Virus record (IMG/VR): IMGVR_UViG_3300020470_002265
Location: 1 to 22,888 of that record
From: a virus
DNA: 22,888 nucleotides
Strand: one strand, 5' to 3'
Shown here: in pieces, positions 2,748 to 22,711 of the stretch
Layout of the letters: each line of letters opens with the position of its first letter
Position numbering within the stretch: position 1 is the first letter of the stretch
Translations under genes and position numbers: made by a program
Notes under the pieces: model-generated
The model's input: only the letters and a program-made list of their open reading frames with translations
What the model was told of the DNA's origin: nothing
Databases searched by the model: none

Positions 2748-3023
2748 TTATGTTTTAAGGAATGCCGGAGCTGACTTACCTTTAGCATTTTTAGCAAGGT
2801 AGTCAATTAAATTGGAAGCTGCTTCTTTAGATATGTTCCAGCTATGAGACAGTATTGCTGCGGCTACAGGGTGGCTGTAACAAGATATAGGAGGTCCGTT
2901 AGGGTGGTATATAACTCCGATGTAAGCGTCTGATAATTCGCCCAACAAACTAAGAGTTAAGTGACCTTCCGTGTCTTCCGGCCCATCAAAATCTATACTA
3001 AATCTATCGTTCCACATCGCCAT
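2748..3023 (-). CDS. Hypothetical 91-aa protein overlapping the probable small terminase gene
   Basis: I do not recognise this protein. The N-terminal half is acidic and strand-like (FSIDFDGPEDTEGHLTLSLL), and the C-terminal half is helical, ending in a basic tail (LIDYLAKNAKGKSAPAFLKT). No motif, signal or membrane segment is visible. Its first ATG lies 20 bases inside the end of the upstream terS-like gene in another frame; a second ATG at 3017 would shorten the overlap. Both would give nearly the same product. The overlap with terS and the short gap to the next gene suggest a shared transcript, so a packaging or early function is possible but unproven. Confidence 0.65.
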   Translation of the reverse strand: MAMWNDRFSIDFDGPEDTEGHLTLSLLGELSDAYIGVIYHPNGPPISCYSHPVAAAILSHSWNISKEAASNLIDYLAKNAKGKSAPAFLKT

Positions 3024-3615
3024 CGCTGGGGTCCACGTCGATTATGGTTTTACCCTTCATCTTGTCCAGCGAGCCATCACCCTTATCAGCCTTTGAATTA
3101 TTAAGTATGGATATGTCTATCTGCATGCGACTTCCGCCGCCGCCTGTCTTGGCGTTCAAGCCAAGGTTTCTTCTGATAAGTTGATCTAATTCTGACATTT
3201 CGCGCACAGTCTTCGGCCCCTTAATGGACATCATGCTGTCGCGTAGAAGTTTAATTCCCGCCGCCGCGACGTAGTGTTGGTATTTATCGGCGGGGGAGTT
3301 TTGTGATTCAGCAATCTCCGCAAGGATTTTGTCTTCTTCTTTATTTGCGGCGAGCTTGGCGGCAGTTGCCGCCTCCTGTGTCATCTCTTCCAGATGAACT
3401 TCAAGGTCTTCCTTCAGCTTGTCTTTGTCGGTATCTTTGTCGGGCAGCTTAAAGCCTGCCCTTTTTGGGGGTAACCCCAATTTTCGGAACCATCTCCTCA
3501 CGGTCCCTTGGTGAACACCCAGCCTTCTGGCAATAGCAGCATTGGTCATCCCTTCTGCATTAAGTTTTAATGCTTCTTGGACTATTTCGTTATTCCCATC
3601 GTTCTTGCTTCCCAT
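3004..3615 (-). CDS. Probable terminase small subunit (HTH plus coiled-coil)
   Basis: The 203-aa product has the layout of many phage small terminase subunits, which bind the packaging site and hand DNA to the large subunit. Residues about 22-47 form a helix-turn-helix (MTNAAIARRLGVHQGTVRRW). A highly charged, Ala/Glu/Lys-rich stretch (about 60-108) could form the oligomerising coiled coil. A C-terminal part has TVREMSELDQLIRRNLGLN followed by a Gly-rich linker and a strand MQIDISIL, resembling C-terminal tails of small terminases. The HTH is clear; the assignment as TerS is inferred from this layout and from the divergent large terminase next door. The alternative is a phage transcription regulator. 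It is the first gene of the leftward operon, so it would be made together with replication genes, not with terL, which is unusual. Confidence 0.62.
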   Translation of the reverse strand: MGSKNDGNNEIVQEALKLNAEGMTNAAIARRLGVHQGTVRRWFRKLGLPPKRAGFKLPDKDTDKDKLKEDLEVHLEEMTQEAATAAKLAANKEEDKILAEIAESQNSPADKYQHYVAAAGIKLLRDSMMSIKGPKTVREMSELDQLIRRNLGLNAKTGGGGSRMQIDISILNNSKADKGDGSLDKMKGKTIIDVDPSDGDVER

Positions 3616-3648
3616 GCTATTAACAGTAAAGTTGAACCTGATTTAATC

Positions 3649-7088: not shown

Positions 7089-8111
7089 ATGGCTCTTGAT
7101 TTTAATTCTGACATAGCCCCGCTTCGTTCGCAGTTTTTTCCTGTAAGTGGTATGCGAGCTTCTGAGTTCCGGCAGATACAGGGACTCCATGACGAGCTGG
7201 TGGCCCCAGCGCAACAACGCACCATGCAACTGCAAAACCAGATTATGGGGATGCAACAACAGGACATGGCTTATGAGAGAGCGCAGATTGAGTTAGGGAA
7301 CGCACGCCGAAGCGCCCAGCAGCAAACAGCAGCTTTGGAGATTGTCCCAGAAGTAACCGATAAGCTTACGGGGATTGTCAACAATCCCAGCAAAGATCCT
7401 TTCGACAGGGTAAAAGAAGTAAACGCTTTAGCTATGGGCTATTCCAGCACTTTAGCTCATAGCCCTGTTCTCCAGAATATGTTCCAGTCTGCCACTAATT
7501 CTATACAGGCAGACCACAATAAAGAAAGAGACACCCGAAGTCAGGAGAATCGGAAATGGGGCCTAGCTCATACGTTGAGTCAGATAGGCGCTGATGAATT
7601 GGTGGAGAAACATTTTGGTGATGGTTCAGGCGAGGTAGATTATCCGTCAGTATATAAAGATATGGCCAATCTTTTCAAAACGAGGCAGAGGGCCGCGCAG
7701 GACAAAGAAGAAAAGAAAGCGGAAGCCGCAGAAATCAAACGCTTCACAGACCAAAGACGACAAAATCTAAGAGCACATCAAAATGCTTTGCTTAGAATCG
7801 GGGCTGTTACTAAAGAATTTCTCCCTGAAACAGACGAAGACGGAAACATTATTACGGAAGGTAAAGACCCCGAAACCCCCCAAGACATTAACATTGATGA
7901 CTTGGACAGGTCCGTAATCGAGGAAATTATGCGGGATCTCAACAAGAATTTGGGTAGTGAAACCTTGGGTAAATTCTCTACCAGAGACCTATATAGTGCT
8001 GCGCTCAGAAGCATGAACAGAGAATTTCGCAGCCTTAATCCAGACCCTAGACCCAAAACCAGAAAAACCACTTCTGGCGATGTTTCAATTCGTGATCTAA
8101 TAAGCACCTGA
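7089..8111 (+). CDS. Putative coiled-coil internal virion protein (340 aa)
   Basis: I do not recognise a named family. The N-terminal third is rich in Gln and Met with long helical heptad-like stretches (QQRTMQLQNQIMGMQQQDMA, about 42-61, then ELGNARRSAQQQTAALEI). A second charged coiled coil lies near 200-235 (RQRAAQDKEEKKAEAAEIKR). The C-terminus is mixed charge and ends in a basic, Thr-rich tail. There is no signal peptide or membrane segment. Position between the EF-hand protein and the giant gene, with gaps of 4 and 35 bases, resembles the clusters in which podovirus-like phages encode their ejected internal proteins. The start ATG has no Shine-Dalgarno. A role as a partner or chaperone of the giant is plausible but inferred from context only. 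Confidence 0.72.
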   Translation: MALDFNSDIAPLRSQFFPVSGMRASEFRQIQGLHDELVAPAQQRTMQLQNQIMGMQQQDMAYERAQIELGNARRSAQQQTAALEIVPEVTDKLTGIVNNPSKDPFDRVKEVNALAMGYSSTLAHSPVLQNMFQSATNSIQADHNKERDTRSQENRKWGLAHTLSQIGADELVEKHFGDGSGEVDYPSVYKDMANLFKTRQRAAQDKEEKKAEAAEIKRFTDQRRQNLRAHQNALLRIGAVTKEFLPETDEDGNIITEGKDPETPQDINIDDLDRSVIEEIMRDLNKNLGSETLGKFSTRDLYSAALRSMNREFRSLNPDPRPKTRKTTSGDVSIRDLIST

Positions 8112-8146
8112 TAATCGCCTTTTAACAATCCACTATCACTTCAGCT

Positions 8147-11100
8147 ATGTCTGATTTAAAATTTCTTCTCGGAGAAGACGAGAATGAGAAGTCTCCCGTT
8201 GACGTAAAACCGTATTCTGAATGGGCGGTAGATAATACATACAACGACGCTATTGAAAGCAAAGTTGCCTATACTGATTATCTAAGGGAAAGCTTCATTG
8301 ATGCCAAGCAATACAATACCGAACTTGAATCGGAGATCAGAAACAACTTGGCGTTTTCCTTGGTGGAAGAAAAGTTAGCTGACCCCGAAGACACAGACTT
8401 TTTTGCTTCTTTGCATGAAGGCGTAGAACCTAGCTTCGATAGGAAAGTTAATCTTATCCAATCTAGCATTGGTTATGAAGATGATGATTGGAAAGCCTTA
8501 ACTCGCTATAAGGCATTAGCCAAAGTTATTGCTGAAGACCCCCGTGGTGGGGAGCAGGAAACGCGGGATAAGTTGATTGCGGCTAAGGCTAATCTAGAGC
8601 CTATAGTTGCTTCCCGTTTTGATGATGTCAAAAAAGCTATGGTGAATAGTGGGGAGTTAGCGTTCGCCACAGTCCTTGATGAAGAGGGTAATAAAAAGTT
8701 AATAGCAGGTAGCCGCGCCTCTGAGGTGGGGTTACTACAGGGCCTGAAAGAATCTAAAGACGGAGGAGTCACTCTTGCAGATGCTTATCTTGCACAACAA
8801 GAGCTGTCTAATGTCAAAGGAACAGAGATCCCTCTTTACCATTTTAAGCGGCTTAAAGAAGCCCACGACATGATCGTAGCACTGACCAAAGAAGATGAAT
8901 CTTTTGGTTATCAGGTAGAAGGGCACGCCAATAGACTTGCTCGTAGAGAACATGATCGCAACGACAGGTGGCAGTGGATGCTGAACTTTGTCAAAGGAGC
9001 TGTTGTTGAAGGGACTGGTCAGTTGATTGAAGCAGGTAAGGCTATTGTAAAAGGAGAGAACATCAAAGAATACGTTGCTGAGAGTGGTGTGGGTAAAGCC
9101 ATCGAGCGATCAGACAAAGTGTGGGGGGCAGGTAGTGCAGATATAACTGACAGCATTAAACACCTTGCTGAACGGCTGAATACCGCCGAAGGGGTTACCG
9201 CTGGCGAAGAGTTCTCTCTGGATGAAGTGCGAAAAGCTTACGCGCAGGCACTACTTACAAGTGCTAACAATAGAGGTAAGTTTGAGTTCCACGATGATGA
9301 TGACGAGCTTGGCAAAAACATCCGCACTTATGGATTTCTTGGACCCACTATCCACCCTAATGCAATGGCCAAGGAGTCTGTCTTCAATAAGATGCTGGAC
9401 TCTCGCCCAGACATAGACGACGAAACTAAAGAGGGTCTCCGACAATCAAGAACTGCTTGGCTAGATAATAATTTCCTAAATGTAAGCAAGCTTCTGCTGA
9501 GTTCAGGCAAAGCGGATATATGGCAGGATGCTTTGACCGAAGGAAGAATAGCCAGAAAGCAAAACCACGAGATCCTCGATGACTTCCTAGAAGACCCCGA
9601 TAACTTTAGCGAGTTTGCAGAAAGAGCCAAAGGCATAGGTTGGTCTATCCTAGATGCATTCACCTCAATGGTAGCGGCCATCCCTGCTATGGCTGGGAAT
9701 GAATTCGCCCAAGATGTTCTTGTTAAAACGACTGCCCGCAATCAGTTGCGGAGAGAAGTCGCTGGCCTGTTTGGGGAAGAGTTTGGTTTTTGGCAGGATG
9801 TTGGAGAAGCCATCGCCCCCCTTACTGTTGACCTTGCTGCTACCGCAGCTCTGGCTTTTGTAACAACTCCAGCAGCGGGAACGGGTGGAGCAGCTTATCT
9901 GGCTGCTAAACAAGGCGCTCGATTAACAGTGATGGGCTTTTTGAAAACGCTCACTTCTGGCGCTTTGCGTGTGACCGCAGAAGAAGGGGCAACAACGGTA
10001 GCCAAAAACCTCATAGCTCAAAAACTTATTAGGGAATCTGTGGCAGGCTCTGCCGAAAAAGGGGCGATGGCGGCTGTGAGAGCCTATAATAGTGCTTTGG
10101 CACACAAAATTGGAACCTCTTCTGCTGTGTTCCTTACCGCAGCTAATAGGTCTAGTGCGGCAACTTATGGCTCCATCTCTTACCAGTTGCAACAAACAAC
10201 AGACCTCAGTGATGAAGAGATACACGACAGAGCTTTAGGAGGCGCTTTAACTGCTGGCGCGATCACTGGTTTTGTAACTAGTGCTTTTAGTTTTATGGGG
10301 CGCGGCGGCATTGAAGATGCCCTTTTAAAAGGGATGTCTTTCAAGCAGGCCGTGTCTCTCGTGAAATCTATGGGGAATGTTAAAGGTCTCGGAAAAGGCC
10401 AAGTAGCAAGCAAAATTGCCGATGGCATTAACGAACAAATGCTTGCAAGTCTGACTGGATTAAAAGCAGCTAAGTATGGGGCGGCTAAAGCCATTTTCAG
10501 GGGCGCGTTTAATGAGTTTACGGAAGAAACTATTGATGAATTTTTGACGGGGATCGTACAAGACGCTGTTCTTAATGAAAACACACCCTTTATTGAGGCT
10601 GTTGGGCAGTCACTTTATGCTGGAGGAATTGGGGCTGTTCTCGGTTCTGGGTCTCCTGCTATCCAGAAAATTGGTGAGACGATAAAGACTGATCGTTTTT
10701 TACAATACGAAACTGCGGCCCGTATCGAACGAGATTTTGTTACTGGATTACAAGAAAGACTTGAATCGGTTGGTCTTCCTTTAGCTGGGCGGCAATTAAG
10801 CAATCTCCTCAGGACACCAGTACGCGAAAGAGAAGCATTTGTGTCGGGTATGATCCCCGGCGAAGAAACCGCAGCCCCCGACACAGAACAGGCTTGGTAT
10901 ACCAATTTTAGAGAGAAGTACGGGCAGCTTACCCCAATGGGCAGGGAGGAATCCCAGCAGGCCCGTGATTTTGCCGAAGACCGCGAGCAGATGATGCGAG
11001 ATCTCTCTGAGGCTAAAGAGTTCTTAACTCCAGAAACAAATAGCCTGCTTATTAGTGAGTTTGCTCTTCAGCAATCTTATCAGGAATTTGAAAAAGCGTA

Positions 11101-14100
11101 TGACTCTCTCGTCCCTGCCCCTGACGGAGTAATCACTGAAGAGCAAAAAAATCTTATAGACGAGTGGGAATCCAATAATTTCCCACTCCCCCCAGACAGA
11201 GAGCAGTGGAGAGCTGCTGTCAGAGCCAAGCTGCCAACCCTATACCCTGTGGGGGCAGCAAGAGCAGCAGAAGAGACGCCACCCCCGACCCCTCTGGAGG
11301 AGGAAGACGACACAGATCCTACTGAACTAATCCGTGTTTTAGATACAGCTTTAAGCACAGAAGAAGGACAACAAAAATTACAGGCAGAGGTTTCAAAAAT
11401 GAACCTCCCTTACTCTACAGATATCAATGGGCAGATGCTCATGGAATTTGAAGACATTGTTCCTGACAGTGTGCCAGATGCTGACCCCGTTGATGCGGGC
11501 GACGCTATGTCCTCTTTGTCCAGTCAAGCCACTAGAGAAATTTCCAGAAGGCTTGGTGCTGACCAGATGGAGCTTGTCGTTACCGAATCTGGTGAACATA
11601 TCTTAATAGATCCTCTTACTGATCGGGCGCAGGGCGTTATCCCTTACGCAGAAACAGCAGAACCCGACATAGAGGCCCCTTCAATTTCTGATTTTCCAGA
11701 ATTCGCGGAGGAAGTAGAGAAAGGAGACAGTGTTTTCTCTAGTCTGGAACAAGCGGATGCCTTTTTCAAATTAGCTGCGGAAGGATTTCCCGTCAGATTA
11801 TCACCCGCCCAAACTTATGGGCTACCACTTACTGGTAGTTACGCAGAGAAAGCGGACGCTCTGGCCAAATATTCTTATTCTTTCTACCCAGTAATCCCTG
11901 TTTCCAAACCAGATGGGGGAGAAAGCTGGAAGAGCACCAGAAAAAAAACTTACTTTGACCCTTATTCGTTAGAACGCAAAACAGACTCAAAGATGAGTGG
12001 TTTTGTGGATCGGAATGGTAGAGGAGTTTTTAATAACGATCCTGTTCTGATGGCGGAAATGTTGGCGCACGGCATCCCGATCCCTATTCCAGAAGGAGTA
12101 GAAAACATGAACCCTGCTATTGTGCCTTCGGCAGATGGGAAATGGGTTTCTGGAGTCCGTAAAGTTTCTTCCGATAGACAGCTTAAAGAATCGGCTGTTA
12201 CCCCATTAGAAAAATTCGGGGCTGTTGAACCCAACAACAACACTGGTCAGGCTTGGTGGGGGCTACCCTTTATTGATACACAGGATGTTACTGACGCAAA
12301 ACCTTTACCAGAAGGGTCTCGTTCATTAACCCAAGATGGGGGAGACAAAGTTCTGAGGGCGGATGACAAACATCACGCGACCATTGTTAATGATCTAGCT
12401 GTTTTCTCAGAAAACGTAAGTCGTAATCCCAGTGCTTACGCTTCTTATTTTAAAACTTACGGTGGCAATCAATTAGAAGGTAATTATAGGGAACAGGCTG
12501 TTTGGGCTGCGGTAGGAGAGTTCAAGGCATTAGCTCATCTATTTGAGTTCAGGCAATTTCTCTTGAGTGATGGCCCAGAGCTAACAGCCACTGTCAATAA
12601 TCGCAGGGTAGTAAACCCCGATAAAGTGTCCCGCGTTAATCGTGCTTTCAAATCGAGAGTTACAAGCCCTCCAGCAGAAACAAGAAAGCGGTTGGAGGAG
12701 TTTCTTCCGGCTCATTTGCATCGCGGCAAAACTAATAGAGATGTCACGATAGCCTTCATCAATGAGATGATCCTCAACAATTCTGATTTTGATGGGGACC
12801 AGATGCCTACCTTTTTAAGTATATTGGACCGCACTGTTGGGAGATATGTGTCTCAGCAGAGCAGTTCAAGTGATGTTGCTATTAGTAGGGGTATTCTAAG
12901 TCTAGATGAAGATGGCGTTCTTGATGAAGCCTCTATGGTTCAAGCTGAAGATATTGGGTCTCACCAAGCTGACATAGTTCCTTCCGTTGAACCTATTGGC
13001 CCACAAGTTTTTTCAGATACTACGCAAACAGCTATCCGCGATGCGGTGTCATTGATTGACCAAGATGAAGAACTTAAAGCGGCTTTAGTTGATCTAGCTC
13101 GCCAGTCTTTGTATGAGAATGCAACTGCCTCTGAAGTTTCAGAGTTGATGTCCACCCCCACTAGGGAGCTTTTAGCTCGCCTTGGTAGTTGGATGGAAAC
13201 AGGCAGTCATGCTGGACGATCCAATGTTCTGGAATTCACACACAATCTGGAACAACAGCAATTCCAATCAGGTCTCGACTTACGAAATGCTCTCGTTACC
13301 AGCGGGTTCCACTTGATTGAAGGGAACCCCGCTGATGATGCAGATTTTGTAGAACAAATCCGTTTTGCGCTTTCAACATCTCTCGGTGAAACAAAGTCTG
13401 TTCAATACGCTAAAAACTTTATCAACGCCATTGGTGAAGGGATGCGTATCAGGCGGCTATCTCGTTCGTATCTTACAAAACAACAGAGGGAAGCAGCCCA
13501 AGCTTCTAATGAAGCTGCTGTTAGCAGGCTAGGCTTGCAGGACGGCAACCCCGACACGGTTGTCAATGCACTGGAAACGATTTCAAAAACCAGCACAAAT
13601 AGAAGCCATAGATTGGTAGCGTCTCTGTTGCTAGAAGACCCTTACTTCATTCGTCAGGTAAGGTTCTCTATGATCTATACCCACGCTGATTTTGCTGGAG
13701 AATACACCCTGAGGAATAACGGAGTCCATAATGTGACTATCAATCTTGCGACTAGCAATGGTCGCGGTCTTGAGAATGTTCTTCTAGAAGAATATGTCCA
13801 CGCTTTCTTGGCCAGCACGATGGCCAAGGGCGAGAATCAATTAAGCAGTAGACAGTTGGCTGCTCGCCGCCGCCTTGAAAACTTGTATAAAGCAGCACGG
13901 GACTACTACTCTAAAAATTATATTGATAGCAATCCCTCAATGCGAAGCCCTGTGTTTGAAGCTGGGCTGGAAAATATAGACGAGTTTGTCACCAGTTTTC
14001 TGTTGTCTCCTGATTTTCAGAAATTTGTTAAGACTATGGAGCCGCCCAAAGGACAGCGCGGTTTCTTCAAGCGCATACTGGATGCTATGGTTTCTATGTT

Positions 14101-17100
14101 CCGCAAGGTTACGGGCAAAGAAGTCAAAGTTTATTCAGACGCTCTACAGGATATAGTAGAACTGAGCCGCACTACCTATCGGGGTGGAACTTCCCACCTT
14201 GGAACTTTTGTTGCTGAAGCAGCTCAAGAAGCTGTTGATGTAGAGCGACGAGCTACCTCTGATGTCAGAGAGAGCCGCCCCACTTTGGAAGTTACCCCGA
14301 CGAAAGACGACAAAGTTGCAATGGTAGATCCTGAGTGGCCCGCCGTTTTGGATGACTCAGTAGATCAAGATCAGGACTCTGAGAATCGTGACCGTGATCT
14401 GGCCACTATTAAAAGAGAAGCCCGACGAGAGTTAGCAGATTCTGGTTTGAGCGAAGAATTTTCAGACCTTATGGACTTTATGAAGGGGCGGGTTCCTTTT
14501 GGAGTTACCCTTAAAGTTGACTTTAACACGGTCGCGCCTGCTTATACCAAAGGAGGCGTCTTATACGTCAACCCCCTCAAGATCATGCAAGTGGTGGACG
14601 GCATGGACACTCTTGGTCAACGAGGATATGTAGACTCTATTATCCATGAGGAACTCGGCCACGTTGCTTCTTGGAATTCTCTTTCTGTCTCCGACATTAA
14701 CACAGTTGTAATGTCTCTTTCTGAGTCTGATTTTGCCAGTATTGCCAACGAGTATTACCAGACTCAGCGAGATAAAGATGATTCATCTACAAGAAGGAAT
14801 TCTTCTGACGCACTAGAAGCCAAACGAGAGAAGGTTCGCTTAGTGGAAGAAAAACTCCGCATGCGGTTGCAGAAAGTAACTCGCGGGTTCACCACAGAAG
14901 AAGACATCGCTTTCTGGAAAAGTGACCCCAGCTTGCTGGCTATCCTTAAAAGATATATCAGCGGCGTCATTAACAGGATTGTAGCAAACAGGCGTCTCAT
15001 AAGCGCATCTCATGGCTCTATAGATGCCTTGCTTGTCCCACTGGTTCACGAAATGCGGGCGATACAAGCTGGGTTTGGTAGGACACCAATCCTACAAAAT
15101 TTTGACCCCGACAACCCGTCTGCATCCGTTCAGGATTACCTTTCTGTCGCAAATGAAGATCTGTTTTCTGCCATAGCTGACGAACAAGACAAGTCGCAGA
15201 TGGTTGCTCTAGCCGCAACAGCAGGTTGGACCGCACAGGACATGTTTGAGAGTTTTCTTATAGAAAATAATATGCAGATGAAAGCTGGTGGCCCTTATTA
15301 TGGTGGGTACACCGAACAAATGCTCCCTGAGCTGCGTGAACAATTAACCAGAGCTAAAGAGCGTTTAGAAGAAAAGGATCTTCCCCCTGAAGTGGCTACG
15401 GCCTTGCGTGATTTATATTCAAAAATCGGGCTTGGTTTTCGAGTTGAGGAAGACGGATCACTGACCCCCTCTCGCATCCCCAACTTCGTCCAGACACAAC
15501 TTCAAGATAAGTTTATGGCGTGGATAGACGGCTTTCGGATCCCCACGGCTGAGTTAGCGGTACAGCTCCGAAAACCCTCAAGACAAGGTACCCTTCAATC
15601 AAGTGCAATTTCTAGACGCGCTGCGAGAGATTATAGAAGTGTTCGTCAAAACTTCGATACCTACTTCCCCGCTGATTTCCGAATCGGCTGGGGGGAAGAT
15701 TATGACATTAGCGAGTTAAGAAAATCGGTGGGGTATCTCGCAACTACCAGAAACCCCATGAGTATAGATGTGGGGAATACATGGGCGGGGGCTTTCGTAG
15801 ACTCGATACGTGGCGATACAGATGAAAAACGTGCTGCTATTCTTGCTGCTGGTGGGTGGGGGAATTTGGTCGGAGACGGCAACGTATCAACTGATAAATA
15901 CCACGACACAGGAATCTCTTACACCAAAGTCCTGCTACCAGAAGTCGTTGATTGGGATGCCGTGGCCCACCTTATCCCTGACCACCTGTTGGTGTTTGCT
16001 GCGGTTTCAAATCTTTTAGACAAAGCACCCATCTCTGTGCCTCAATCTATTAAAAATCGTCAAAGTCTTGCTAGGCATTTGCAGTGGGATAATAGCACTC
16101 AGACTATTCAGTTTGAACGACTCACATTCCCAGATCAAGAACCACCTAAACTTATAGGTGGGGTGTATGATGTTGATGACGACGCTAATGCTGAGTTAAA
16201 GAGGATGCTATTAAATCAGATAGGTACCAGAGCTAGGCTAGGGTCAAACCTCCCGAATATTAGTGGCGATAGTGCGGGTATGTACCTTATGACTATAGGC
16301 GGCTTAATGCAAAGTTTAGGTCTAACCGCAACCTTCGAGGCCGAGCAGGAGGGCCTTAGTTTTACAGAAGACCCAGACCACCCTACATATGTTGGGTTGA
16401 AAGATGATTATGAACCAAACGAAATAGAAAATATTGCACTGAATATAGAAGCGGCGGGCGCGACCACGGGTGGTCGTGTTGAATTATCAAACATATCTAT
16501 CCCTATATGGCCTGAGGATAGTGTTCAGACGGATGAACTCTATGAATTAGATCCGCATGCCGCGAGTTATTTCTATACCGATATCCTTGAGGGAAAGCGA
16601 AGTTTATCCTACGAGATGGTGCGGCCTGATGGCTCTAATGTTTCTTTTTCCCAAGCAGATAAAGACAACCTCCTACTTAGAGATACAACAGTCATTGGAT
16701 ACAGCTCTGTCGGAGTAGCTAATGACATTATTGCAGATAGTCCTTCCTATGCGCGGGAGGACGTAGCAGAAAAGATCAGGGGACGCATTGTAGAGACTTC
16801 AAAAAATCAGCTTAGATTCGCAAAAATAAAACTGCTCGCCTTAATCGCGAGTGGCGAGAGTTTAGAAACAGAAATACCTGTTACTTTTGGTTTACCTAAG
16901 CCGCCCCGCCTACCAAGGAACCTTCAAGGATGGACTAGAGGAGAGAGACTAATTTACGATTACGAAAATGTTCGCAATAGCCTGCTGAAGAATGGGTCTT
17001 CTTCTGAAGTATTTTCCTACGGTATGTATTATCCGGCTGGTACTCCTTCAGAGGACTATGACTTGGACGGGTCCACACCCTCACGTAAACCACTCCCTGA

Positions 17101-20100
17101 TGATCTAAATGTTGATCTAACAGTTAAGAATTTTTTAAACTCAGTCGTTAATTCTGCAAAAAGCATGCAATCCATAGACTCTCGCACCTTGGAGGCAGCG
17201 TGGGTTGAAAATGGTATTATTGAAAAAGACGAAGACGGCAACGTCGTGAAAGTACACTATGGAGATATTTGGATACCTGACGACCCACTGATGCGCCCCC
17301 GTGTTTCTAACCTGCTTGAGACAGTGACTGAATTTGAAAACGGTTACTTTTCACCTACTGGCGGTGGCATGGTGTGGGGCAACCGAATAGAGGCTAGAGG
17401 CAGCGGGGCTAGAGAAGCGGGCGACGAGAGCGCACATATACTTAAAAGCAGGAGCAGGGAGGGCGAAAAGAGAGACTGGTTTGACCCCTCAATAGGCGTG
17501 CCAGACATCACAAACACCACGCCCGTTCACTTGCCTCAGGAAGAAGAAGGGACTATCTCCATTTCAAACGATGTTTCGGAGTTCTCTGATTCACTGCTGG
17601 GGGACGCTTCCCCTTTCGATTCTCTTCTGGCAGCAAAAGGCCCAGTTGCACAAGTGTCACATACGCGGGCAAGACGAATAGAAAGATCAGGCTTTTCTCT
17701 CGTCGGAGAAATGGGGGAACCAATTTTACCTGTTGAGGTATCTGGATGGGGCCATGCATCCATCATGGGAACGGTAGACTCCTTCCACGAATTCAACAAC
17801 GCAGAACCAATAAGTCTAGCGGATCTGGGATCAGTAGATAGGAATAGCGATACAGGCCCTAGGGTCCAAAAAATCCTAAATGAACTTAGTGCAAACTTAT
17901 CTAATGACCAAAGGGTTGTGATGGCAGAGGTCAGAGGGGATTTTGTTACTATCAGAACCTACCCTATTTTCGATTCTATTGAAGAAGTGCAGGATGCTGT
18001 AGGTCCGTACAGCGACCCTACGGATATTATCGTGCCCGCAAGTAGTTACGAGTCTCTTGTAGATGACCAGACTAAAGAAAAGCTAAAGAATAAAGTAGTA
18101 GTTCAGGGGCAGTATATAAACATATCGATGTATCCCGGTTATTGGGACATCGACGCTATGTTCCCTAGTGGTAGCTTTACCGCAAATCAGGAAGGGCGAA
18201 CCAAAGGGTTGGGGGGTGGAGATACTACCGTATTTGCTGACAGGGGGAGCATATCTGGTAGCCTTGCTATGGAGGTCTTCTTTGCCCTTCAAGCCCGCAA
18301 AAAAGATCTAGGGATTACAGAGCTGACAACTACTTCGGCAGGATCATCCGCTAACATGAAAAGGCAGCATGATCTGGGTCGGGTAGGACTTCCCTCTTCA
18401 TTTAAACTGAGTGACGGAAGCAGGGTACGCCATGAGGTGCTCAAAGGTCCGACTGGGTTTCTATCTTGGTTCAATATGGGATTTGTCCCTGAGCATGAAG
18501 GTGATTTAAATAAAGCACTACAGCAGCGTTTCTACGGGGAGACCAGAGGAGATGGGATGGGACTCGCAGAGTCTGTTGATGTCGTTATCCAAACCCTACA
18601 GGTTTCCCAAACCCTAAAACAGCAGGAAGATCTCAGGGAGGAGATTCGAGAAGACATCAAAGATGCCGCTTCAAGGTTTAGGCGCACTTTAGAGCAAAAC
18701 GCTGCAAGCCTTCCGGCGGATAGCCAGTTTGTTACACTCTCTGAAGAAGAATGGAATGGTCTTCTGGCTGACTACCAGAGTAATACGTTGGATCTCACGG
18801 TTCGATCTTCCGAGCGGATGAAAACGCACGTATTAGGTAATTTTGATCGTCAACTATCGGCTCGTCTAGATGACGCAGTCGAGGAAGAAATGGAATATCG
18901 GCACACGCTTCAGAATATTTTTGTCAGACCAGAAGAACGTGTTGATTTAGAAGCAGCCCTTGAAGCTTTCAAAGCTGACCCCCAATCCCGCCAAAGCGGT
19001 GAGTTTCTTCGGCAAATAGAACAAAGGAATTGGGACGTTTTCTGGGGTCTTCATTCTCACGATAGAACGCCCGCAGAAAGGAAAGCTGCGTATAGATTTT
19101 TGAAGGCAAATATGATGGGCGGCAAATTTACGTTTGACCTTACTGAAAACAGCAGAAGCATGCAGGCTATCTCCGCAAAATTCCCTTACGCTAGGTATGT
19201 CAGGAACGCAGACAATGAGCGGATTATCAGTCAGGCCAATAAGATATATAGCCCACCCATTAAAAAACTTGAAGACGCTATAGCAACGTCATTGAAGTCT
19301 CGCCGCGACGACCCCCTTGACGAAACCCCCCATTCTGACGAATCAGCATATAAGGAAACGACCCAAGATATCGCTAGGTTGCAGGACATGTCACAACCAG
19401 AGATGGATTCTTTTGTTTCTGACAAAATGGGCAAGTTCCGTCGGGGTGAAGAAAACCTTTCAGACCTTAAACGCGAGCTGGTTGACGCTGCGGCAAAGGC
19501 AGCTAACGGCCATCTGCATGCTAATGGGATGGCTATTCCGCTGTTCACAAGTTCTTCTCCGGCCCCTTCTACTTCTCCGGCCTCTTCTACTTCTCCGTTG
19601 CCTGATGAGTTGTTTAAGAATTTTGTCCAACTTCTTGAGCTGCCTCTGTATGAAATCGGGGGGTATGAGGCTCCAAAAGGTTGGATTAACAAGTTGATTA
19701 AAGGGGATGTTGGCGAACCAGTTAAGCGTTTTATAAAGCATCGAGAAGAGTTCAACAGAGGGGCAGCTTTGTTAGTCAAAGCTTACAAGACTACACTGGA
19801 TAAACTTGTTGATGATTACTTCGGGGGTTGGGATAACACCCCTGAGGACATGCAAGACGTGATTGCTCACGCTCAGGGGTTTGTTGACGGCAATATTTTG
19901 AGTAGTGATGCAATCGCAGCCATTGATGCGGCACACGAAGCCCGCGTTGTGGCTATAGACAATGACCCAGACTTATCTTCTAAGAACAAAGTTATCGAGC
20001 GCAAAGCTTCCGCTCAACAAAGAGATACTGAGATAGAGGCCGCAGAAGATTCAGCTATTGCTGCGATAGAGGCTAGGACTAAAGCGGCCATGAAAGACTT

Positions 20101-22711
20101 GGAGAAAGCGGCCCCTAAACTGGCTTCTCACATTAGAGATATCAGGCACAAGCTCCTGAGGCCCATGCAGGAGAAGCTTATTGGCTCTGGCATTGGTTCT
20201 GGTCTCGCTGCACGGATCGACAAGACAGGCGGCATTTACATTACTCGTACTTACCAAGGATTTAATGATCCCACGTTCTTTGATCGTGTTCGGGAAGACC
20301 CTGAGTATGCAGATGTCAGGGAAGCAGCCATGAGTTATTTCACTAAATCCAAGTATGACCACTTGTATGACCAAGCCATAAACAAAGGCTTGTCTGATGC
20401 AGATGCTCGCAAGGAAGCAGAAGATGAAATGGCGCGGGCTGAAAGAAGGGCTGTCGCTACTGGTTGGAGCAGGTCATATGGTGAGGAACAGATGAAAATT
20501 TTCCTTTCTCGCTATGATGGCAAACCTACCAGACCAGACTCATTCAATGCTTCTGGGTTTCAGGTTATGGAGAAGAACCTGAAAAGAAGGAAAGATCTTC
20601 CGAAACCTATTCGGGATCTTCTTGGTGAGCTTGGGGTCAGAAGGGCAGGTGAACCGGGGGATGATACTGGAACAGATTTGATCTTACGCACCTTTTCCGC
20701 TGTGGCTACCTTGACAGCCCAGCAAGCATTCCTAAGCGATCTTGCCAAGGTGGGAGTAGAAACAGGGTTCCTTGTTGATGTTGAGACAATGAAGAATGAC
20801 CCCCAGTATTCAGACTGGGTGCCCCTTCGTGATGGAACTCTTTCTGAGAATGACCCTCTGAAGTATCTTTATGCCTCGCCTTCCTTGAAGGAAGCTCTCC
20901 AGCAGACGTTGCAACCATCTTTCTTTGTTCAGAATGCTACGACTTCGGAGCAATCGGTTGGGGCTTTAGCCAAGGTAGCCAGAAACCTCACTGGAAAATC
21001 TATGGCTATGAAAACCTTGGGGAGCGTAGGGTTCTTTCTACGAAACACTCTGGGCAACCTGTTGTTCTTCGGCCCAGCTCAGGGGTTTTACAGGATCGAC
21101 AAGATGCTCTCTAAGACGGTGTCTCATACTTGGTCTCGTCTTACAGACCCAGATAAGATGGATCTGTATTTAGCTGAATTGACAGGTCTGGGTATTGCCA
21201 TGAATTCTGTGAGATCAGGAATCATGCGCGAACTTCTTACTGGTCGCCTAACCCCTAAGGGAGTCTATGCTCAGGTTGAATCTTTAGTAGATGATATAGC
21301 TGTGCTGGGTCCGACAGCCAAGGGCGTTAAATTACTGGAGAAGAAGGCTATTGATTTGTCTGAAGCTCTTGATGATGCCTACAAGATTGCTTACTTCGAG
21401 AATGAACTTGGGGTTTTGAGGAAAGCTCATCAGTCGGAGCAGATGCTCCCTTCGGAGCAACGCAGCGTTATTGGCTCTATGTCTGACTACGGCCTAAAGC
21501 GAGAAGCTGCTCGTAAAGTTAAGATGACGGCACAGTCTTTGAGCGAAGCGCCTGAGGTCGTAACTAATCTTTCTCATTCTGGGTTTGGTCTTCTGTTCGC
21601 TCCGTTCCTCCGGTTCAAAACAGAAGTCCCCCGCATTGTCATCAATACCTACAAGCTTAGTTTTGACGAAATAGCCAGTGACAACGATGTTATCAGAGCG
21701 CGTGGTTTTCGTAGGTTTGCATCTATGACAGGTATGCTTGGTGTGGTATCTGCTGCTGGACCCGCTGTTTTGGCGGCAATGTCTGGTATTGGGGATGACG
21801 AAGATGAAGCCCTTCGGAAGTCGATGCCTATCTATCTACGAGGTCATTCCTTCTGGTGGGTTAGAGACAAAAAGACGAAGGAGTTACGATCAATGGATCT
21901 TACCTATATGAACCCGTTCAGCCTTTTGTCTGATCCCACTATGAGGGCGATGCACCATATGTTGAATGGTGACTTTGGAAAAGCCGCAAGCAGGTTCGCC
22001 ACTGGTCTAGTGTTTGATACTTATCTCGATGACCAGATTTTAGCTAGTTCTATTTCTGATGTTCTTAACAACAAGAACGAAACAACGGGGCGTTCAATCT
22101 GGATTCCTGAGGTAGACAACACAGGGAAGGTTCTTATCAAATCTCTAGGACATATATTAAAGGAAGCTTACGAACCTCGTACTCTTAATGACGCTATAGA
22201 TGCGGCCCAAGCTGTGGGAGGAGACTATTCTAAATGGAGTGACTCCCCCGTAGGCGAGCTTATGGATGGTGTTTGGCCCATAAAAGTCCATCAGGTTGAT
22301 TTAGAACAACAGTTTAGACGCTTCATACGCGACCACACTAAGCGTGTAAAAGAAGTTTCAGATAAGAAGTATCGGATCTTTTCAAAGAAGCCTATTGATA
22401 AAGACAACATTCGAGATCTTTACGAGGATGAAGTCGAAGGCAAACAATCTTTGAACGCTGAGTTGTTGCGAGTGTCTCGTGGTTTCGCTCGTCTTGGTTT
22501 AGACCATAAAACACAGTACCAGATGATGGTATCTCTGGGTGTAGGCAAAGAAAAAGCCCGCCTCATGTTTTTCAATGTCATGGACCGTCCCTCAATTAAC
22601 AAGAGGCTCGTTGAAGAACTCTATAAGAGAAACCTGCAACATAGGTTGGGGCCACTTATTCAACAGTATGAGACCTACCCACGGTATCTTTCTATAGAAC
22701 CTAAGGAATAG
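8147..22711 (+). CDS. Giant multidomain phage protein (4854 aa), probable ejected polyvalent protein
   Basis: A single uninterrupted frame encodes a protein of more than half a megadalton. Residues 1-480 are helical and charged. About 497-840 hold several Gly/Ala-rich hydrophobic segments that could insert in membranes. An acidic Pro-rich linker lies near 1035-1062. At 1544-1553 is NNSDFDGDQM, like the RNA polymerase beta-prime catalytic loop. Near 1881-1951 is a zincin-like region of the kind found in phage polyvalent proteins, but with EEYVH and no third ligand; near 2167-2172 is IHEELGH, a second such helix. Residues about 3310-3455 look GNAT-like (RTKGLG, R3351, and WFNMGFVPE). A Ser/Pro linker follows at about 3801-3820, then a coiled coil (about 3928-3990). 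The C-terminal module (about 4280-4854) has an FFLRNTLGN segment and hydrophobic helices. Family knowledge supports an injected virion protein; activity of any domain is unproven. Confidence 0.9.
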   Translation: MSDLKFLLGEDENEKSPVDVKPYSEWAVDNTYNDAIESKVAYTDYLRESFIDAKQYNTELESEIRNNLAFSLVEEKLADPEDTDFFASLHEGVEPSFDRKVNLIQSSIGYEDDDWKALTRYKALAKVIAEDPRGGEQETRDKLIAAKANLEPIVASRFDDVKKAMVNSGELAFATVLDEEGNKKLIAGSRASEVGLLQGLKESKDGGVTLADAYLAQQELSNVKGTEIPLYHFKRLKEAHDMIVALTKEDESFGYQVEGHANRLARREHDRNDRWQWMLNFVKGAVVEGTGQLIEAGKAIVKGENIKEYVAESGVGKAIERSDKVWGAGSADITDSIKHLAERLNTAEGVTAGEEFSLDEVRKAYAQALLTSANNRGKFEFHDDDDELGKNIRTYGFLGPTIHPNAMAKESVFNKMLDSRPDIDDETKEGLRQSRTAWLDNNFLNVSKLLLSSGKADIWQDALTEGRIARKQNHEILDDFLEDPDNFSEFAERAKGIGWSILDAFTSMVAAIPAMAGNEFAQDVLVKTTARNQLRREVAGLFGEEFGFWQDVGEAIAPLTVDLAATAALAFVTTPAAGTGGAAYLAAKQGARLTVMGFLKTLTSGALRVTAEEGATTVAKNLIAQKLIRESVAGSAEKGAMAAVRAYNSALAHKIGTSSAVFLTAANRSSAATYGSISYQLQQTTDLSDEEIHDRALGGALTAGAITGFVTSAFSFMGRGGIEDALLKGMSFKQAVSLVKSMGNVKGLGKGQVASKIADGINEQMLASLTGLKAAKYGAAKAIFRGAFNEFTEETIDEFLTGIVQDAVLNENTPFIEAVGQSLYAGGIGAVLGSGSPAIQKIGETIKTDRFLQYETAARIERDFVTGLQERLESVGLPLAGRQLSNLLRTPVREREAFVSGMIPGEETAAPDTEQAWYTNFREKYGQLTPMGREESQQARDFAEDREQMMRDLSEAKEFLTPETNSLLISEFALQQSYQEFEKAYDSLVPAPDGVITEEQKNLIDEWESNNFPLPPDREQWRAAVRAKLPTLYPVGAARAAEETPPPTPLEEEDDTDPTELIRVLDTALSTEEGQQKLQAEVSKMNLPYSTDINGQMLMEFEDIVPDSVPDADPVDAGDAMSSLSSQATREISRRLGADQMELVVTESGEHILIDPLTDRAQGVIPYAETAEPDIEAPSISDFPEFAEEVEKGDSVFSSLEQADAFFKLAAEGFPVRLSPAQTYGLPLTGSYAEKADALAKYSYSFYPVIPVSKPDGGESWKSTRKKTYFDPYSLERKTDSKMSGFVDRNGRGVFNNDPVLMAEMLAHGIPIPIPEGVENMNPAIVPSADGKWVSGVRKVSSDRQLKESAVTPLEKFGAVEPNNNTGQAWWGLPFIDTQDVTDAKPLPEGSRSLTQDGGDKVLRADDKHHATIVNDLAVFSENVSRNPSAYASYFKTYGGNQLEGNYREQAVWAAVGEFKALAHLFEFRQFLLSDGPELTATVNNRRVVNPDKVSRVNRAFKSRVTSPPAETRKRLEEFLPAHLHRGKTNRDVTIAFINEMILNNSDFDGDQMPTFLSILDRTVGRYVSQQSSSSDVAISRGILSLDEDGVLDEASMVQAEDIGSHQADIVPSVEPIGPQVFSDTTQTAIRDAVSLIDQDEELKAALVDLARQSLYENATASEVSELMSTPTRELLARLGSWMETGSHAGRSNVLEFTHNLEQQQFQSGLDLRNALVTSGFHLIEGNPADDADFVEQIRFALSTSLGETKSVQYAKNFINAIGEGMRIRRLSRSYLTKQQREAAQASNEAAVSRLGLQDGNPDTVVNALETISKTSTNRSHRLVASLLLEDPYFIRQVRFSMIYTHADFAGEYTLRNNGVHNVTINLATSNGRGLENVLLEEYVHAFLASTMAKGENQLSSRQLAARRRLENLYKAARDYYSKNYIDSNPSMRSPVFEAGLENIDEFVTSFLLSPDFQKFVKTMEPPKGQRGFFKRILDAMVSMFRKVTGKEVKVYSDALQDIVELSRTTYRGGTSHLGTFVAEAAQEAVDVERRATSDVRESRPTLEVTPTKDDKVAMVDPEWPAVLDDSVDQDQDSENRDRDLATIKREARRELADSGLSEEFSDLMDFMKGRVPFGVTLKVDFNTVAPAYTKGGVLYVNPLKIMQVVDGMDTLGQRGYVDSIIHEELGHVASWNSLSVSDINTVVMSLSESDFASIANEYYQTQRDKDDSSTRRNSSDALEAKREKVRLVEEKLRMRLQKVTRGFTTEEDIAFWKSDPSLLAILKRYISGVINRIVANRRLISASHGSIDALLVPLVHEMRAIQAGFGRTPILQNFDPDNPSASVQDYLSVANEDLFSAIADEQDKSQMVALAATAGWTAQDMFESFLIENNMQMKAGGPYYGGYTEQMLPELREQLTRAKERLEEKDLPPEVATALRDLYSKIGLGFRVEEDGSLTPSRIPNFVQTQLQDKFMAWIDGFRIPTAELAVQLRKPSRQGTLQSSAISRRAARDYRSVRQNFDTYFPADFRIGWGEDYDISELRKSVGYLATTRNPMSIDVGNTWAGAFVDSIRGDTDEKRAAILAAGGWGNLVGDGNVSTDKYHDTGISYTKVLLPEVVDWDAVAHLIPDHLLVFAAVSNLLDKAPISVPQSIKNRQSLARHLQWDNSTQTIQFERLTFPDQEPPKLIGGVYDVDDDANAELKRMLLNQIGTRARLGSNLPNISGDSAGMYLMTIGGLMQSLGLTATFEAEQEGLSFTEDPDHPTYVGLKDDYEPNEIENIALNIEAAGATTGGRVELSNISIPIWPEDSVQTDELYELDPHAASYFYTDILEGKRSLSYEMVRPDGSNVSFSQADKDNLLLRDTTVIGYSSVGVANDIIADSPSYAREDVAEKIRGRIVETSKNQLRFAKIKLLALIASGESLETEIPVTFGLPKPPRLPRNLQGWTRGERLIYDYENVRNSLLKNGSSSEVFSYGMYYPAGTPSEDYDLDGSTPSRKPLPDDLNVDLTVKNFLNSVVNSAKSMQSIDSRTLEAAWVENGIIEKDEDGNVVKVHYGDIWIPDDPLMRPRVSNLLETVTEFENGYFSPTGGGMVWGNRIEARGSGAREAGDESAHILKSRSREGEKRDWFDPSIGVPDITNTTPVHLPQEEEGTISISNDVSEFSDSLLGDASPFDSLLAAKGPVAQVSHTRARRIERSGFSLVGEMGEPILPVEVSGWGHASIMGTVDSFHEFNNAEPISLADLGSVDRNSDTGPRVQKILNELSANLSNDQRVVMAEVRGDFVTIRTYPIFDSIEEVQDAVGPYSDPTDIIVPASSYESLVDDQTKEKLKNKVVVQGQYINISMYPGYWDIDAMFPSGSFTANQEGRTKGLGGGDTTVFADRGSISGSLAMEVFFALQARKKDLGITELTTTSAGSSANMKRQHDLGRVGLPSSFKLSDGSRVRHEVLKGPTGFLSWFNMGFVPEHEGDLNKALQQRFYGETRGDGMGLAESVDVVIQTLQVSQTLKQQEDLREEIREDIKDAASRFRRTLEQNAASLPADSQFVTLSEEEWNGLLADYQSNTLDLTVRSSERMKTHVLGNFDRQLSARLDDAVEEEMEYRHTLQNIFVRPEERVDLEAALEAFKADPQSRQSGEFLRQIEQRNWDVFWGLHSHDRTPAERKAAYRFLKANMMGGKFTFDLTENSRSMQAISAKFPYARYVRNADNERIISQANKIYSPPIKKLEDAIATSLKSRRDDPLDETPHSDESAYKETTQDIARLQDMSQPEMDSFVSDKMGKFRRGEENLSDLKRELVDAAAKAANGHLHANGMAIPLFTSSSPAPSTSPASSTSPLPDELFKNFVQLLELPLYEIGGYEAPKGWINKLIKGDVGEPVKRFIKHREEFNRGAALLVKAYKTTLDKLVDDYFGGWDNTPEDMQDVIAHAQGFVDGNILSSDAIAAIDAAHEARVVAIDNDPDLSSKNKVIERKASAQQRDTEIEAAEDSAIAAIEARTKAAMKDLEKAAPKLASHIRDIRHKLLRPMQEKLIGSGIGSGLAARIDKTGGIYITRTYQGFNDPTFFDRVREDPEYADVREAAMSYFTKSKYDHLYDQAINKGLSDADARKEAEDEMARAERRAVATGWSRSYGEEQMKIFLSRYDGKPTRPDSFNASGFQVMEKNLKRRKDLPKPIRDLLGELGVRRAGEPGDDTGTDLILRTFSAVATLTAQQAFLSDLAKVGVETGFLVDVETMKNDPQYSDWVPLRDGTLSENDPLKYLYASPSLKEALQQTLQPSFFVQNATTSEQSVGALAKVARNLTGKSMAMKTLGSVGFFLRNTLGNLLFFGPAQGFYRIDKMLSKTVSHTWSRLTDPDKMDLYLAELTGLGIAMNSVRSGIMRELLTGRLTPKGVYAQVESLVDDIAVLGPTAKGVKLLEKKAIDLSEALDDAYKIAYFENELGVLRKAHQSEQMLPSEQRSVIGSMSDYGLKREAARKVKMTAQSLSEAPEVVTNLSHSGFGLLFAPFLRFKTEVPRIVINTYKLSFDEIASDNDVIRARGFRRFASMTGMLGVVSAAGPAVLAAMSGIGDDEDEALRKSMPIYLRGHSFWWVRDKKTKELRSMDLTYMNPFSLLSDPTMRAMHHMLNGDFGKAASRFATGLVFDTYLDDQILASSISDVLNNKNETTGRSIWIPEVDNTGKVLIKSLGHILKEAYEPRTLNDAIDAAQAVGGDYSKWSDSPVGELMDGVWPIKVHQVDLEQQFRRFIRDHTKRVKEVSDKKYRIFSKKPIDKDNIRDLYEDEVEGKQSLNAELLRVSRGFARLGLDHKTQYQMMVSLGVGKEKARLMFFNVMDRPSINKRLVEELYKRNLQHRLGPLIQQYETYPRYLSIEPKE
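12710..12850 (+). other. RNA polymerase beta-prime-like catalytic motif within the giant protein
   Basis: Residues 1524-1553 contain LHR (1524-1526) and then NSDFDGDQM (1545-1553). Cellular beta-prime subunits have NADFDGDQM, in which the three Asp residues hold the catalytic magnesium, preceded by a conserved LHR about 30 residues upstream; here the spacing is about 20 residues from LHR to the motif. Eight of nine residues agree. A calcium-binding repeat of the DxDGDxxPxxL kind is the main alternative. No partner double-psi barrel is obvious. Confidence 0.4.
13640..14140 (+). other. Degenerate zincin-like domain 1 within the giant protein
   Basis: Residues about 1830-2000 follow the layout of the metallopeptidase-like domain in phage polyvalent proteins: a strand with NVTINL, a helix VLLEEYVHAFLA, helices rich in Arg/Ala/Leu, and NIDEFVTSFLLSPDFQ. 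In active relatives the first helix is HExxH and the later segment has AE. Here the first His is Glu (E1881) and the later Glu is absent (T1949-S1950), so peptidase activity is unlikely in the usual form. Confidence 0.5.
14480..14860 (+). other. Zincin-like domain 2 within the giant protein
   Basis: Residues about 2112-2238 contain a strand GGVLYVNP, a helix DSIIHEELGHVASW (H2167 to H2172) and a following acidic helix. The two His residues are five apart, not four, so it is not a standard HExxH; the helix-correct reading is EELGH with Glu in the first ligand place. The overall look (strand, then helix ending GHxA) is like minimal zincins. Confidence 0.45.
18074..18511 (+). other. GNAT-like acetyltransferase region within the giant protein
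   Basis: Residues about 3310-3455 show the order expected of a GNAT fold: strands (VVVQGQYINISMYP), the acyl-CoA loop pattern R/Q-x-x-G-x-G as RTKGLG (3351-3356), a helix (SLAMEVFFALQARKKDLG), a strand ending in ITELTTTSAGSSAN, and a final GFLSWFNMGFVPE (from 3437) like the GNAT tail with GF. An insertion separates the last two parts. Substrate is unknown. Confidence 0.4.
19555..19596 (+). repeat. 18-bp tandem repeat coding a Ser/Pro linker
   Basis: The unit beginning ttctccggcc occurs at 19555, 19573 and, partly, 19591, with a period of 18 bp. It encodes SPAPST, SPASST and the start of another SP. It lies between two helical regions of the giant protein and looks like a flexible linker that can expand or shrink by slippage. 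Confidence 0.8.

Follow-up and report, generated by a model that had tools for sequence, protein, structure and literature searches.

A 4,854-residue, cysteine-free phage giant with a zincin-like domain homologous to N4 gp50: a probable ejected virion protein

The IMG/VR virus record IMGVR_UViG_3300020470_002265, a fragment of a marine phage genome, was analyzed in its entirety (22,888 bases, called the window below). It codes for a giant protein of 4,854 residues (positions 8147-22711, plus strand). We consider it probable, with good confidence, that this giant resides inside the head of a short-tailed phage as a virion protein, which would be ejected with or before the DNA. It would thus represent a chassis of the N4 gp50 type that lacks the polymerase. 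An original prediction, made from the letters of the window, had proposed that the protein enters the host with the DNA. This is supported as the most likely case by homology to N4 gp50 and LUZ19 gp37, by the homolog phi18:3 gp123, which is annotated from tandem mass spectrometry (MS/MS), and by the cysteine-free set of proteins to which the giant belongs.

The giant frame and its modules

The open reading frame listing of the window contains an uninterrupted frame of 4,854 codons at 8147-22711 (plus strand). First-order Markov simulations of this stretch (200 in number) produced at most 218 consecutive codons without a stop (mean 130). Codon-position GC is gene-like along the entire frame, with a GC of 0.55-0.59 at position 1 in every full bin. 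The giant accounts for 64% of the record; measured against its relatives, whose records have 60-66 kb, the share is about one-quarter.

Relatives were collected by scans of viral contigs with three queries, of which the middle part yielded 4 loci, the N-terminal part 14 and the C-terminal part 80 (kept of 96). Forty full giant regions were fetched, selected from 52 scan records and some further ones, and every one holds one long frame (2,623-5,394 residues). Thirty-four relatives (L102-L135; 3,250-5,394 residues) have the N- and C-terminal modules in common with the window. The middle module was matched in all 31 that were submitted (L103, L113 and L129 were omitted as near-duplicates). The other six giants (L136-L141) are distant and have only the C-terminal part in common with the window. 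The relatives are uncultured, mostly marine phages with the same gene order from terminase to giant, which closes the late gene block. Scans of viral contigs with the last 489 residues of the window giant alone or with its cargo alone returned no relatives; the alignment queries succeeded. A scan of a genome collection returned three loci (L155-L157), all on contigs of metagenome-assembled genomes with no host assigned. These contigs are labeled Porticoccaceae and Acidimicrobiaceae, one being from Red Sea data, and are probably misbinned phage.

An assembly or frame artefact, with fused or chimeric genes, might come to mind for a single metagenomic record. Its probability is negligible, and it is already refuted by the 34 relatives, which have full-length frames with the same module order. 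Because these frames are stop-free, the size of the giant is a family trait and not an artefact. The uninterrupted 14.6-kb gene of the original prediction is thus real, as judged from the frame listing, the simulations, the codon-position GC and the complete single frames in 34 other IMG/VR records.

BLAST against the relatives delineates three conserved modules, which occur in the same order throughout: N (residues ~1-900), M (~1190-2366) and C (~3800-4854). The N module has Gly/Ala-rich, weakly hydrophobic segments near residues 496-572 and 697-717 and a conserved TEETIDEF region at residues 792-799. Among the PDB matches listed for it, all are influenza HA2 chains (best E 5e-4), which were taken as chance matches of a coiled-coil-like stretch. 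Between the M and C modules lies a slot of highly variable length, which we call the cargo slot.

Domain-by-domain structure prediction, an avenue suggested along with the original prediction, results in two tandem zincin-like domains for M and in a helical structure for C. Foldseek searches of both models against the PDB yielded nothing that reached E 0.001. The top VIA-align match of the C model (Z 6.7) is to an unrelated helical protein over 54 residues and was not used. Whole-protein scans against Pfam, PHROGs, NCBIfam and PADLOC gave nothing beyond chance. When compared by tblastn to 50,697 phage records, the first half of the giant had no match and the second half matched five records.

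Homology to ejected virion proteins

A profile of the first zincin-like domain (zincin 1; 30 sequences) matched a single chain in the PDB, 9sfn_G, named "Internal virion protein" (1337 residues, E 5.8e-8). The alignment spans the HEAVHA motif and the third-ligand helix. Over a stretch of 140 residues, 9sfn_G shows 100% identity to LUZ19 gp37 and to close kin of the latter; gp37 of LUZ19 likewise has 1337 residues.

The same domain is found in N4 gp50. Residues 609-825 of the M model match residues 2134-2366 of gp50 by fold (9pnt and 9pnr, Z 8.9 and 8.8; 177 and 180 residues aligned at 3.9-4.0 Å), with the next row at Z 5.7. A conserved zincin HExxH motif is described for the gp50 C1 domain (2124-2375) in a preprint (PMC12633501). 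By HHalign, M matches C1 of six N4-like virion RNA polymerases (vRNAPs) with E 1.6e-9 (probability 96.3). With enlarged profiles (N 54, M 64 and C 77 rows; ten N4-like vRNAPs as targets), M matches C1 with E 5e-9 and a score of 81, compared to a maximum of 52.1 for 15 block-shuffled controls. Homology of zincin 1 to N4 gp50 C1 is thus firm, both by profile and by fold.

The matches of the other two modules are weak. N aligns to the N-terminal domain of the N4-like proteins with E 2.9e-4, score 47.3 and probability 40 (15 block-shuffled controls, maximum 29.8), and C to the end of C2 with E 3.1e-3, score 40.1 and probability 10 (12 controls, maximum 28.1). The matches are collinear, with N, zincin and C in the same order as in gp50, which is suggestive of a common N- and C-terminal chassis. 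No HHalign match to the N4 polymerase core was obtained for N, M or C, and none of the three modules matches T7 gp15.

Two further observations concern the N4-like proteins themselves. At its start, after residue 2376, N4 C2 also gives an alignment with the M profile (E 2.7e-5), and a second, degenerate zincin-like repeat may be hidden there. The vRNAP of Vibrio phage 1.188.A (L152:233-12514) has 4,093 residues and is ~460-730 residues longer than the other nine; this extra length is possibly a cargo insertion in a true vRNAP.

The conserved C-terminal module of the original prediction is found in all close relatives and also in two named phages. By tblastn, it is detected in Pseudoalteromonas phage Y3 (E 2e-18) and in gp123 of Cellulophaga phage phi18:3 (E 4e-4), the record of which is annotated from MS/MS proteomics. 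The tblastn matches are the independent evidence, since the HHalign comparison of C with Y3 and phi18:3 is circular (both loci are in the profile). When 89 records were tested for the C module, 82 matched, but 75 of these had been recovered with the C-module profile itself or, in the case of Y3 and phi18:3, belong to it. Among the 14 remaining records, 7 have the module, and the 7 non-matching ones are frames cut at the locus end.

Relationship to the closest known systems

(i) The giant has much in common with N4 gp50 (Schitoviridae). Both are giant, cysteine-free single chains whose gene ends the late block and is preceded by two small genes for known or likely ejection proteins. The C1 zincin is homologous, the weak matches of the N- and C-terminal parts are collinear, and convergent replication genes follow downstream (in the relatives). 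They differ in that the giant has no RNA polymerase core and has ~600 residues of other sequence before zincin 1. It also has a second zincin-like domain after zincin 1, a large exchangeable cargo slot and a size of up to 5,394 residues in the family, and its metal motif is altered in the window. Since it has no polymerase, the giant is not a vRNAP member; most likely, it works like an ejection protein of the N4 gp50/gp16 type.

(ii) LUZ19 gp37 (phiKMV group) shares the zincin 1 domain (HEAVHA and third-ligand helix), is cysteine-free and is encoded by the last of three internal virion genes. It is much smaller, however, and matches neither the N nor the C module.

(iii) gp123 of phi18:3 shares the C module, is cysteine-free and is a virion protein by its MS/MS annotation. 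It has 1,935 residues, no match to M and only a non-significant match to N.

(iv) Phage Y3 has the C module in the second of two adjacent genes (WPJ21802 and WPJ21803), which code for cysteine-free proteins and together are equivalent to 4,448 residues. In contrast to the giant, they are split, have no M or N match and carry recognized enzyme cargo (ddrB-ParB, LPD1, LPD5, ART-PolyVal and methyltransferase). WPJ21803 and WPJ21802 look like a split giant. The Y3 paper (PMC11654794) counts an ADP-ribosyltransferase ORF among the auxiliary metabolic genes. WPJ21803 (L006:17224-20307) is annotated as an ADP-ribosyltransferase; this label suits approximately its first 130 residues, and the larger part of the protein is C module of the ejection type.

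(v) DarB and DdrB of phage P1, which are polyvalent proteins, are also very large, injected and multi-domain (see also PMC5512222). They differ in having 9 and 2 cysteines, respectively, and no module match was found to DarB.

Exclusion of cysteine

The giant has no cysteine in 4854 residues; 72 TGY codons are expected from its own positional base composition, and 66 cysteines at the rate of the nine other window genes (25 in 1,852). The 34 close relatives are likewise devoid of cysteine (138,762 residues). Among the six distant giants, five have none and one has two. A subset of these sequences, the 27 cargo segments from the window and 26 relatives (26,593 residues), is also cysteine-free. 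Therefore, captured domains have been purged of cysteine or were chosen for its absence.

TerL could be located in 30 of the 34 relatives (some partly cut) and has 168 cysteines in 15,941 residues. Of the frames between TerL and the giant, 68 of 75 are cysteine-free, and the frame adjoining the giant has no cysteine in any of the 30 cases. This is also true for the two window genes that precede the giant. The same absence is found in N4 gp50-52, T7 gp15 and gp16, LUZ19 gp35-37, all ten N4-like vRNAPs, both Y3 proteins and phi18:3 gp123. Phage P1 proteins have some cysteines (DarB 9, DdrB 2 and DarA 1).

That N4-like vRNAPs are cysteine-free has already been published, together with the disulfide argument (PMC3915230, which cites Kazmierczak et al. 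on this matter, and PMC4837373). No statement of a cysteine rule for giants without RNA polymerase or for cargo was found in searches of open-licence papers.

The giant might instead be a non-virion protein, either a late-expressed cytoplasmic protein for host takeover or a surface adhesin. We consider this improbable, since cysteine is excluded as in known ejected proteins, the giant is homologous to two ejected proteins, and its gene is located in the late block.

Tandem zincin-like domains

The M model (AlphaFold2 with 30 sequences) is predicted to consist of two tandem alpha/beta units. Each has three strands and the motif helix, followed further on by a helix that bears a conserved acidic residue; the order of strands and helices in the model is that expected of a zincin. 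In the window, the metal motif of zincin 1 is EEYVH (residues 1881-1885; of HELIH type in a sister group), with E1946 as the candidate third ligand. That of zincin 2 is EELGH (residues 2168-2172), with E2235 as the candidate. The fold is thus present, but the first zinc-binding histidine is replaced by Glu at both sites (EExxH, not HExxH). The zincin-like helices of the original prediction hold up with respect to fold, by model and by profile, and not with respect to the metal motif.

This replacement follows a strict pattern. In 46 non-identical M rows (window included), each readable site is either HExxH or EExxH, with no other variant. Both sites could be read in 37 rows: 17 are HExxH/EExxH, 14 are EExxH/EExxH (the class of the window), 6 are EExxH/HExxH and none is HExxH/HExxH. 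The remaining 9 rows have a gap at one site. HExxH is present at one site in 27 of the 46 rows. These counts are not independent events, because related sequences have a common history. Simple decay would not give Glu every time. Based on this pattern, the zincins of the window are probably not ordinary peptidases. The original prediction had raised the possibility that the chain is cleaved; self-processing by its own zincins is unlikely because EExxH replaces HExxH at both sites. That the two sites are never both HExxH, the changed one always being EExxH, raises a new question about the role of these domains.

The cargo slot

Measured as the distance between BLAST alignment ends, the slot between M and C spans 0 to 2,017 residues in the relatives and mostly 1,425-1,494 residues in the window. 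The window cargo has no Pfam family, no PDB match and no BLAST match to 26 other cargo sequences. Eight close relatives have short cargos to which residues 3370-3459 match weakly (E 6.7e-4; one of eight cargo groups). The slot is exchangeable, as illustrated by L104. This giant corresponds to L105 (97.6% identity over the common 1,470 residues) plus ~270 residues with 74% identity to the L106 cargo. This is a clean gain or loss of one ~270-residue domain between near-identical giants.

When 26 cargos (window and 25 relatives) were scanned with Pfam, DUF7178 was detected in 10, ART-PolyVal in 2, GNAT in 2, methyltransferase in 1 and no family in that of the window. DUF7178 (PF23802) is thus a frequent cargo domain (e.g., in L103, L111 and L130). 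One of the two GNAT matches could be placed in L113. The GNAT-like region of the original prediction has no Pfam support in the window, and 17702-19540 is without a match. An RTKGLG motif at residue 3351 resembles the coenzyme A loop.

These cargos bring up the polyvalent effectors sensu Iyer et al. 2017. In that case, the giant would mainly be a bag of anti-host enzymes, and the ejection machinery would be incidental. The enzyme families among the 26 cargos fit such an effector, as does the 3421-residue neighbouring protein of Y3 with its ddrB-ParB, LPD5, LPD1 and ART-PolyVal domains. We nevertheless rate it as rather unlikely. No library recognizes an enzyme in the window giant, and 8 of the 34 relatives have a slot of less than 60 residues and retain the frame, which indicates that the frame itself is what is needed. 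According to PMC5512222, polyvalent proteins often exceed 2,000 residues, which the giant clearly does. It resembles them in design. Disparate enzyme domains, another polyvalent trait, were not recognized in the window giant by Pfam or NCBIfam and are present in the cargos of relatives; the HExxH motif of a polyvalent-type zincin was not found in the window either, where both sites are EExxH. The polyvalent signature of the original prediction thus stands for the very large multi-module chain, and strict polyvalence is seen only in relatives and in Y3.

Conversely, the giant might be a structural protein of the gp16 type that forms the inner-membrane end of an ejection tunnel, with the cargo as a mere spacer. 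This fits the location of the gene, which follows small cysteine-free ones and closes the late block, as well as the zincin in common with LUZ19 gp37 and the existence of frames with near-zero cargo. No module matches T7 gp16 or gp15, however, and cargo of up to 2,017 residues with enzyme-family matches exceeds what a spacer would require. We consider this rather unlikely, and slightly more so than a polyvalent effector.

The polymerase-like loop

Multi-subunit RNA polymerases (RNAPs) have a conserved NADFDGD loop in a double-psi barrel. The original prediction had noticed a polymerase-like loop, DFDGD at residues 1547-1551, which did not withstand comparison. The motif is present in none of the 34 relatives. 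In an alignment of 14 close relatives, 13 of which have residues at this position, NN...MPT is conserved and the acidic residues are not; L117 keeps FDGD without the first D, and the other 12 lack the motif. The M model predicts DFDGD to form part of a short helix, surrounded by purely alpha-helical structure. The letters were therefore dropped as a criterion for an RNAP.

Domain searches agree with this. Rpb1 domain 2 was not found in the records of the window and of 14 relatives and was detected in 14 of 14 control genomes. A profile of the N4-type RNAP core, which recovers 3 of 4 held-out N4-likes, had no match in 8,721 ORF stretches from 147 loci, window included. A search with PF00940 was uninformative, as its 14 controls gave no match. 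The giant might still be a vRNAP with a core too divergent to be recognized, e.g., in residues 1190-1790 or around the DFDGD loop. It does share a chassis with N4 gp50, and residues 1190-1790 are without a fold match, though barely probed. Against this stand the lack of conservation of DFDGD, the negative results with both the N4-type core and Rpb1 domain 2, and the absence of any match of N, M or C to the N4 core. We consider this very improbable, even more so than a non-virion role.

A proposed mode of action

We propose that the giant, as a head-internal protein, works by analogy with the N4 model of PMC12633501. In that preprint, a channel is made by gp51 and gp52; gp50 then passes through it like beads on a string and refolds after entry. 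Inside the capsid, the chain of the giant would be stored as domains that are loosely linked and can fold individually, along with the two small ejection proteins encoded next to it. These two cysteine-free proteins would form a channel through the envelope upon adsorption. The giant would then be threaded unfolded through the narrow tail and the periplasm and would refold inside, again like beads on a string. The N module would probably stay at or in the inner membrane, with M and C refolding in the cytoplasm and the cargo between them. Because the chain is without any cysteine, it could not be locked by disulfides while being threaded through the oxidizing periplasm. Through the cargo slot, the phage may deliver varied, already synthesized effector domains right at the onset of infection.

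Several points weigh against this proposal. The homolog backed by MS/MS has only the C module in common with the giant. The membrane-like segments of the original prediction are present in the N module but weak (best 21-residue Kyte-Doolittle mean in the giant 1.60, at residue 552). The weakness of the N and C matches to N4 (probabilities 40 and 10) counts here as well; in an earlier comparison with N4 alone as the target and fewer sequences, C gave nothing and N gave E 0.062. The C model has no PDB match, N4 not being among the matches listed. Comparison of N, M and C with T7 gp16 gave E 0.27 to 0.61, so that no module matches. Finally, the absence of cysteine is not an exclusive mark of ejected proteins: the T7 scaffold gp9 and the N4 major capsid protein gp56 are not ejected and are also cysteine-free, and one cysteine is present in the internal virion protein gp14 of T7.

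Gene neighbourhood

The window starts with a cut helicase gene, a gene for a RuvC-like resolvase and a helix-turn-helix (HTH) gene on the minus strand, followed on the plus strand by the gene for TerL, two genes for proteins of 482 and 340 residues, and the giant (Table 1). As in the relatives, the giant is located at the end of the structural (late) block behind smaller cysteine-free genes. The assignment of the two small genes as internal virion genes is based solely on their position and number of cysteines. The TTG start of TerL was assigned mechanically, and the real start may lie further in. No obvious Shine-Dalgarno sequence precedes the ATG of the giant (8114-8146), and a transfer RNA search of the window found none. 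In the relative G002, PHROGs matched an endolysin and, weakly, one virion protein among ten late genes and nothing else; portal and capsid genes were assigned from size and order only.

Table 1. Features of the window, with coordinates on the 22,888-base record (aa, amino acids; pLDDT, predicted local distance difference test; pTM, predicted template modeling score).
Feature	Position	Strand	Basis and remarks
DNA helicase, truncated by the left end of the record	2..1144	-	library scans; 10 Cys
RuvC-like Holliday junction resolvase	1448..1984	-	phrog_1770, E 1.6e-14
HTH protein, divergent from TerL	3004..3615	-	library scans
Terminase large subunit (TerL)	3577..5436	+	phrog_2, E 8e-16; 5 Cys
482-aa gene, likely co-ejected partner	5636..7084	+	place, Cys count (no Cys)
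340-aa gene adjoining the giant, likely co-ejected partner	7089..8111	+	place, Cys count (no Cys)
Giant ORF	8147..22711	+	4854 aa, ATG start, stop-free, 538 kDa, pI 5.0, no Cys
N module, aa 1-900	8147..10846	+	BLAST against relatives, profiles
Acidic, poorly conserved linker, aa 901-1189	10847..11713	+	D+E 22%, K+R 7% over aa 900-1190
M module, aa 1190-2366	11714..15244	+	model pLDDT 75.5, pTM 0.44
DFDGD, aa 1547-1551	12785..12799	+	polymerase-like loop of the original prediction; not conserved, inside an all-helical stretch
Zincin-like domain 1, aa ~1798-2014	13538..14188	+	profile and fold; homologous to N4 gp50 C1 and LUZ19 gp37
Zincin-like domain 2, aa ~2101-2330	14447..15136	+	model, alignment
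Cargo slot, aa 2367-3799, no recognized domain	15245..19543	+	BLAST, Pfam and PDB searches
C module, aa 3800-4854	19544..22708	+	mainly alpha-helical, pLDDT 75.0, pTM 0.69; common to Y3 WPJ21803 and phi18:3 gp123
18-bp tandem repeat, 2.4 copies, Ser/Pro/Ala linker (aa ~3803-3817)	19554..19597	+	cargo/C-module boundary

Implications

An orphan family of phage proteins with 3,250-5,394 residues is now linked to the best-studied giant ejected protein. The frame that delivers can thereby be told apart from the enzyme that is delivered, and natural giants that carry cargo, lack it or have exchanged it reveal which parts passage requires. It is tempting to speculate, with a little less than even confidence, that the N4 vRNAP is just one of the loadouts of an injectable chassis that is older and more widespread. 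This chassis would consist of a membrane-end module, a zincin and a helical C-terminal part and would carry exchangeable, cysteine-purged cargo. The loadouts would be a polymerase in N4-like phages and, in the family described here, ADP-ribosyltransferase, GNAT, methyltransferase, DUF7178 and unrecognized domains. From a run of cysteine-free late genes alone, one could then read which proteins a podophage threads into its host. For uncultured phages, the cysteine rule offers an inexpensive way to test for ejected proteins, and the cargo slot points to a natural route for the delivery of protein domains into bacteria.

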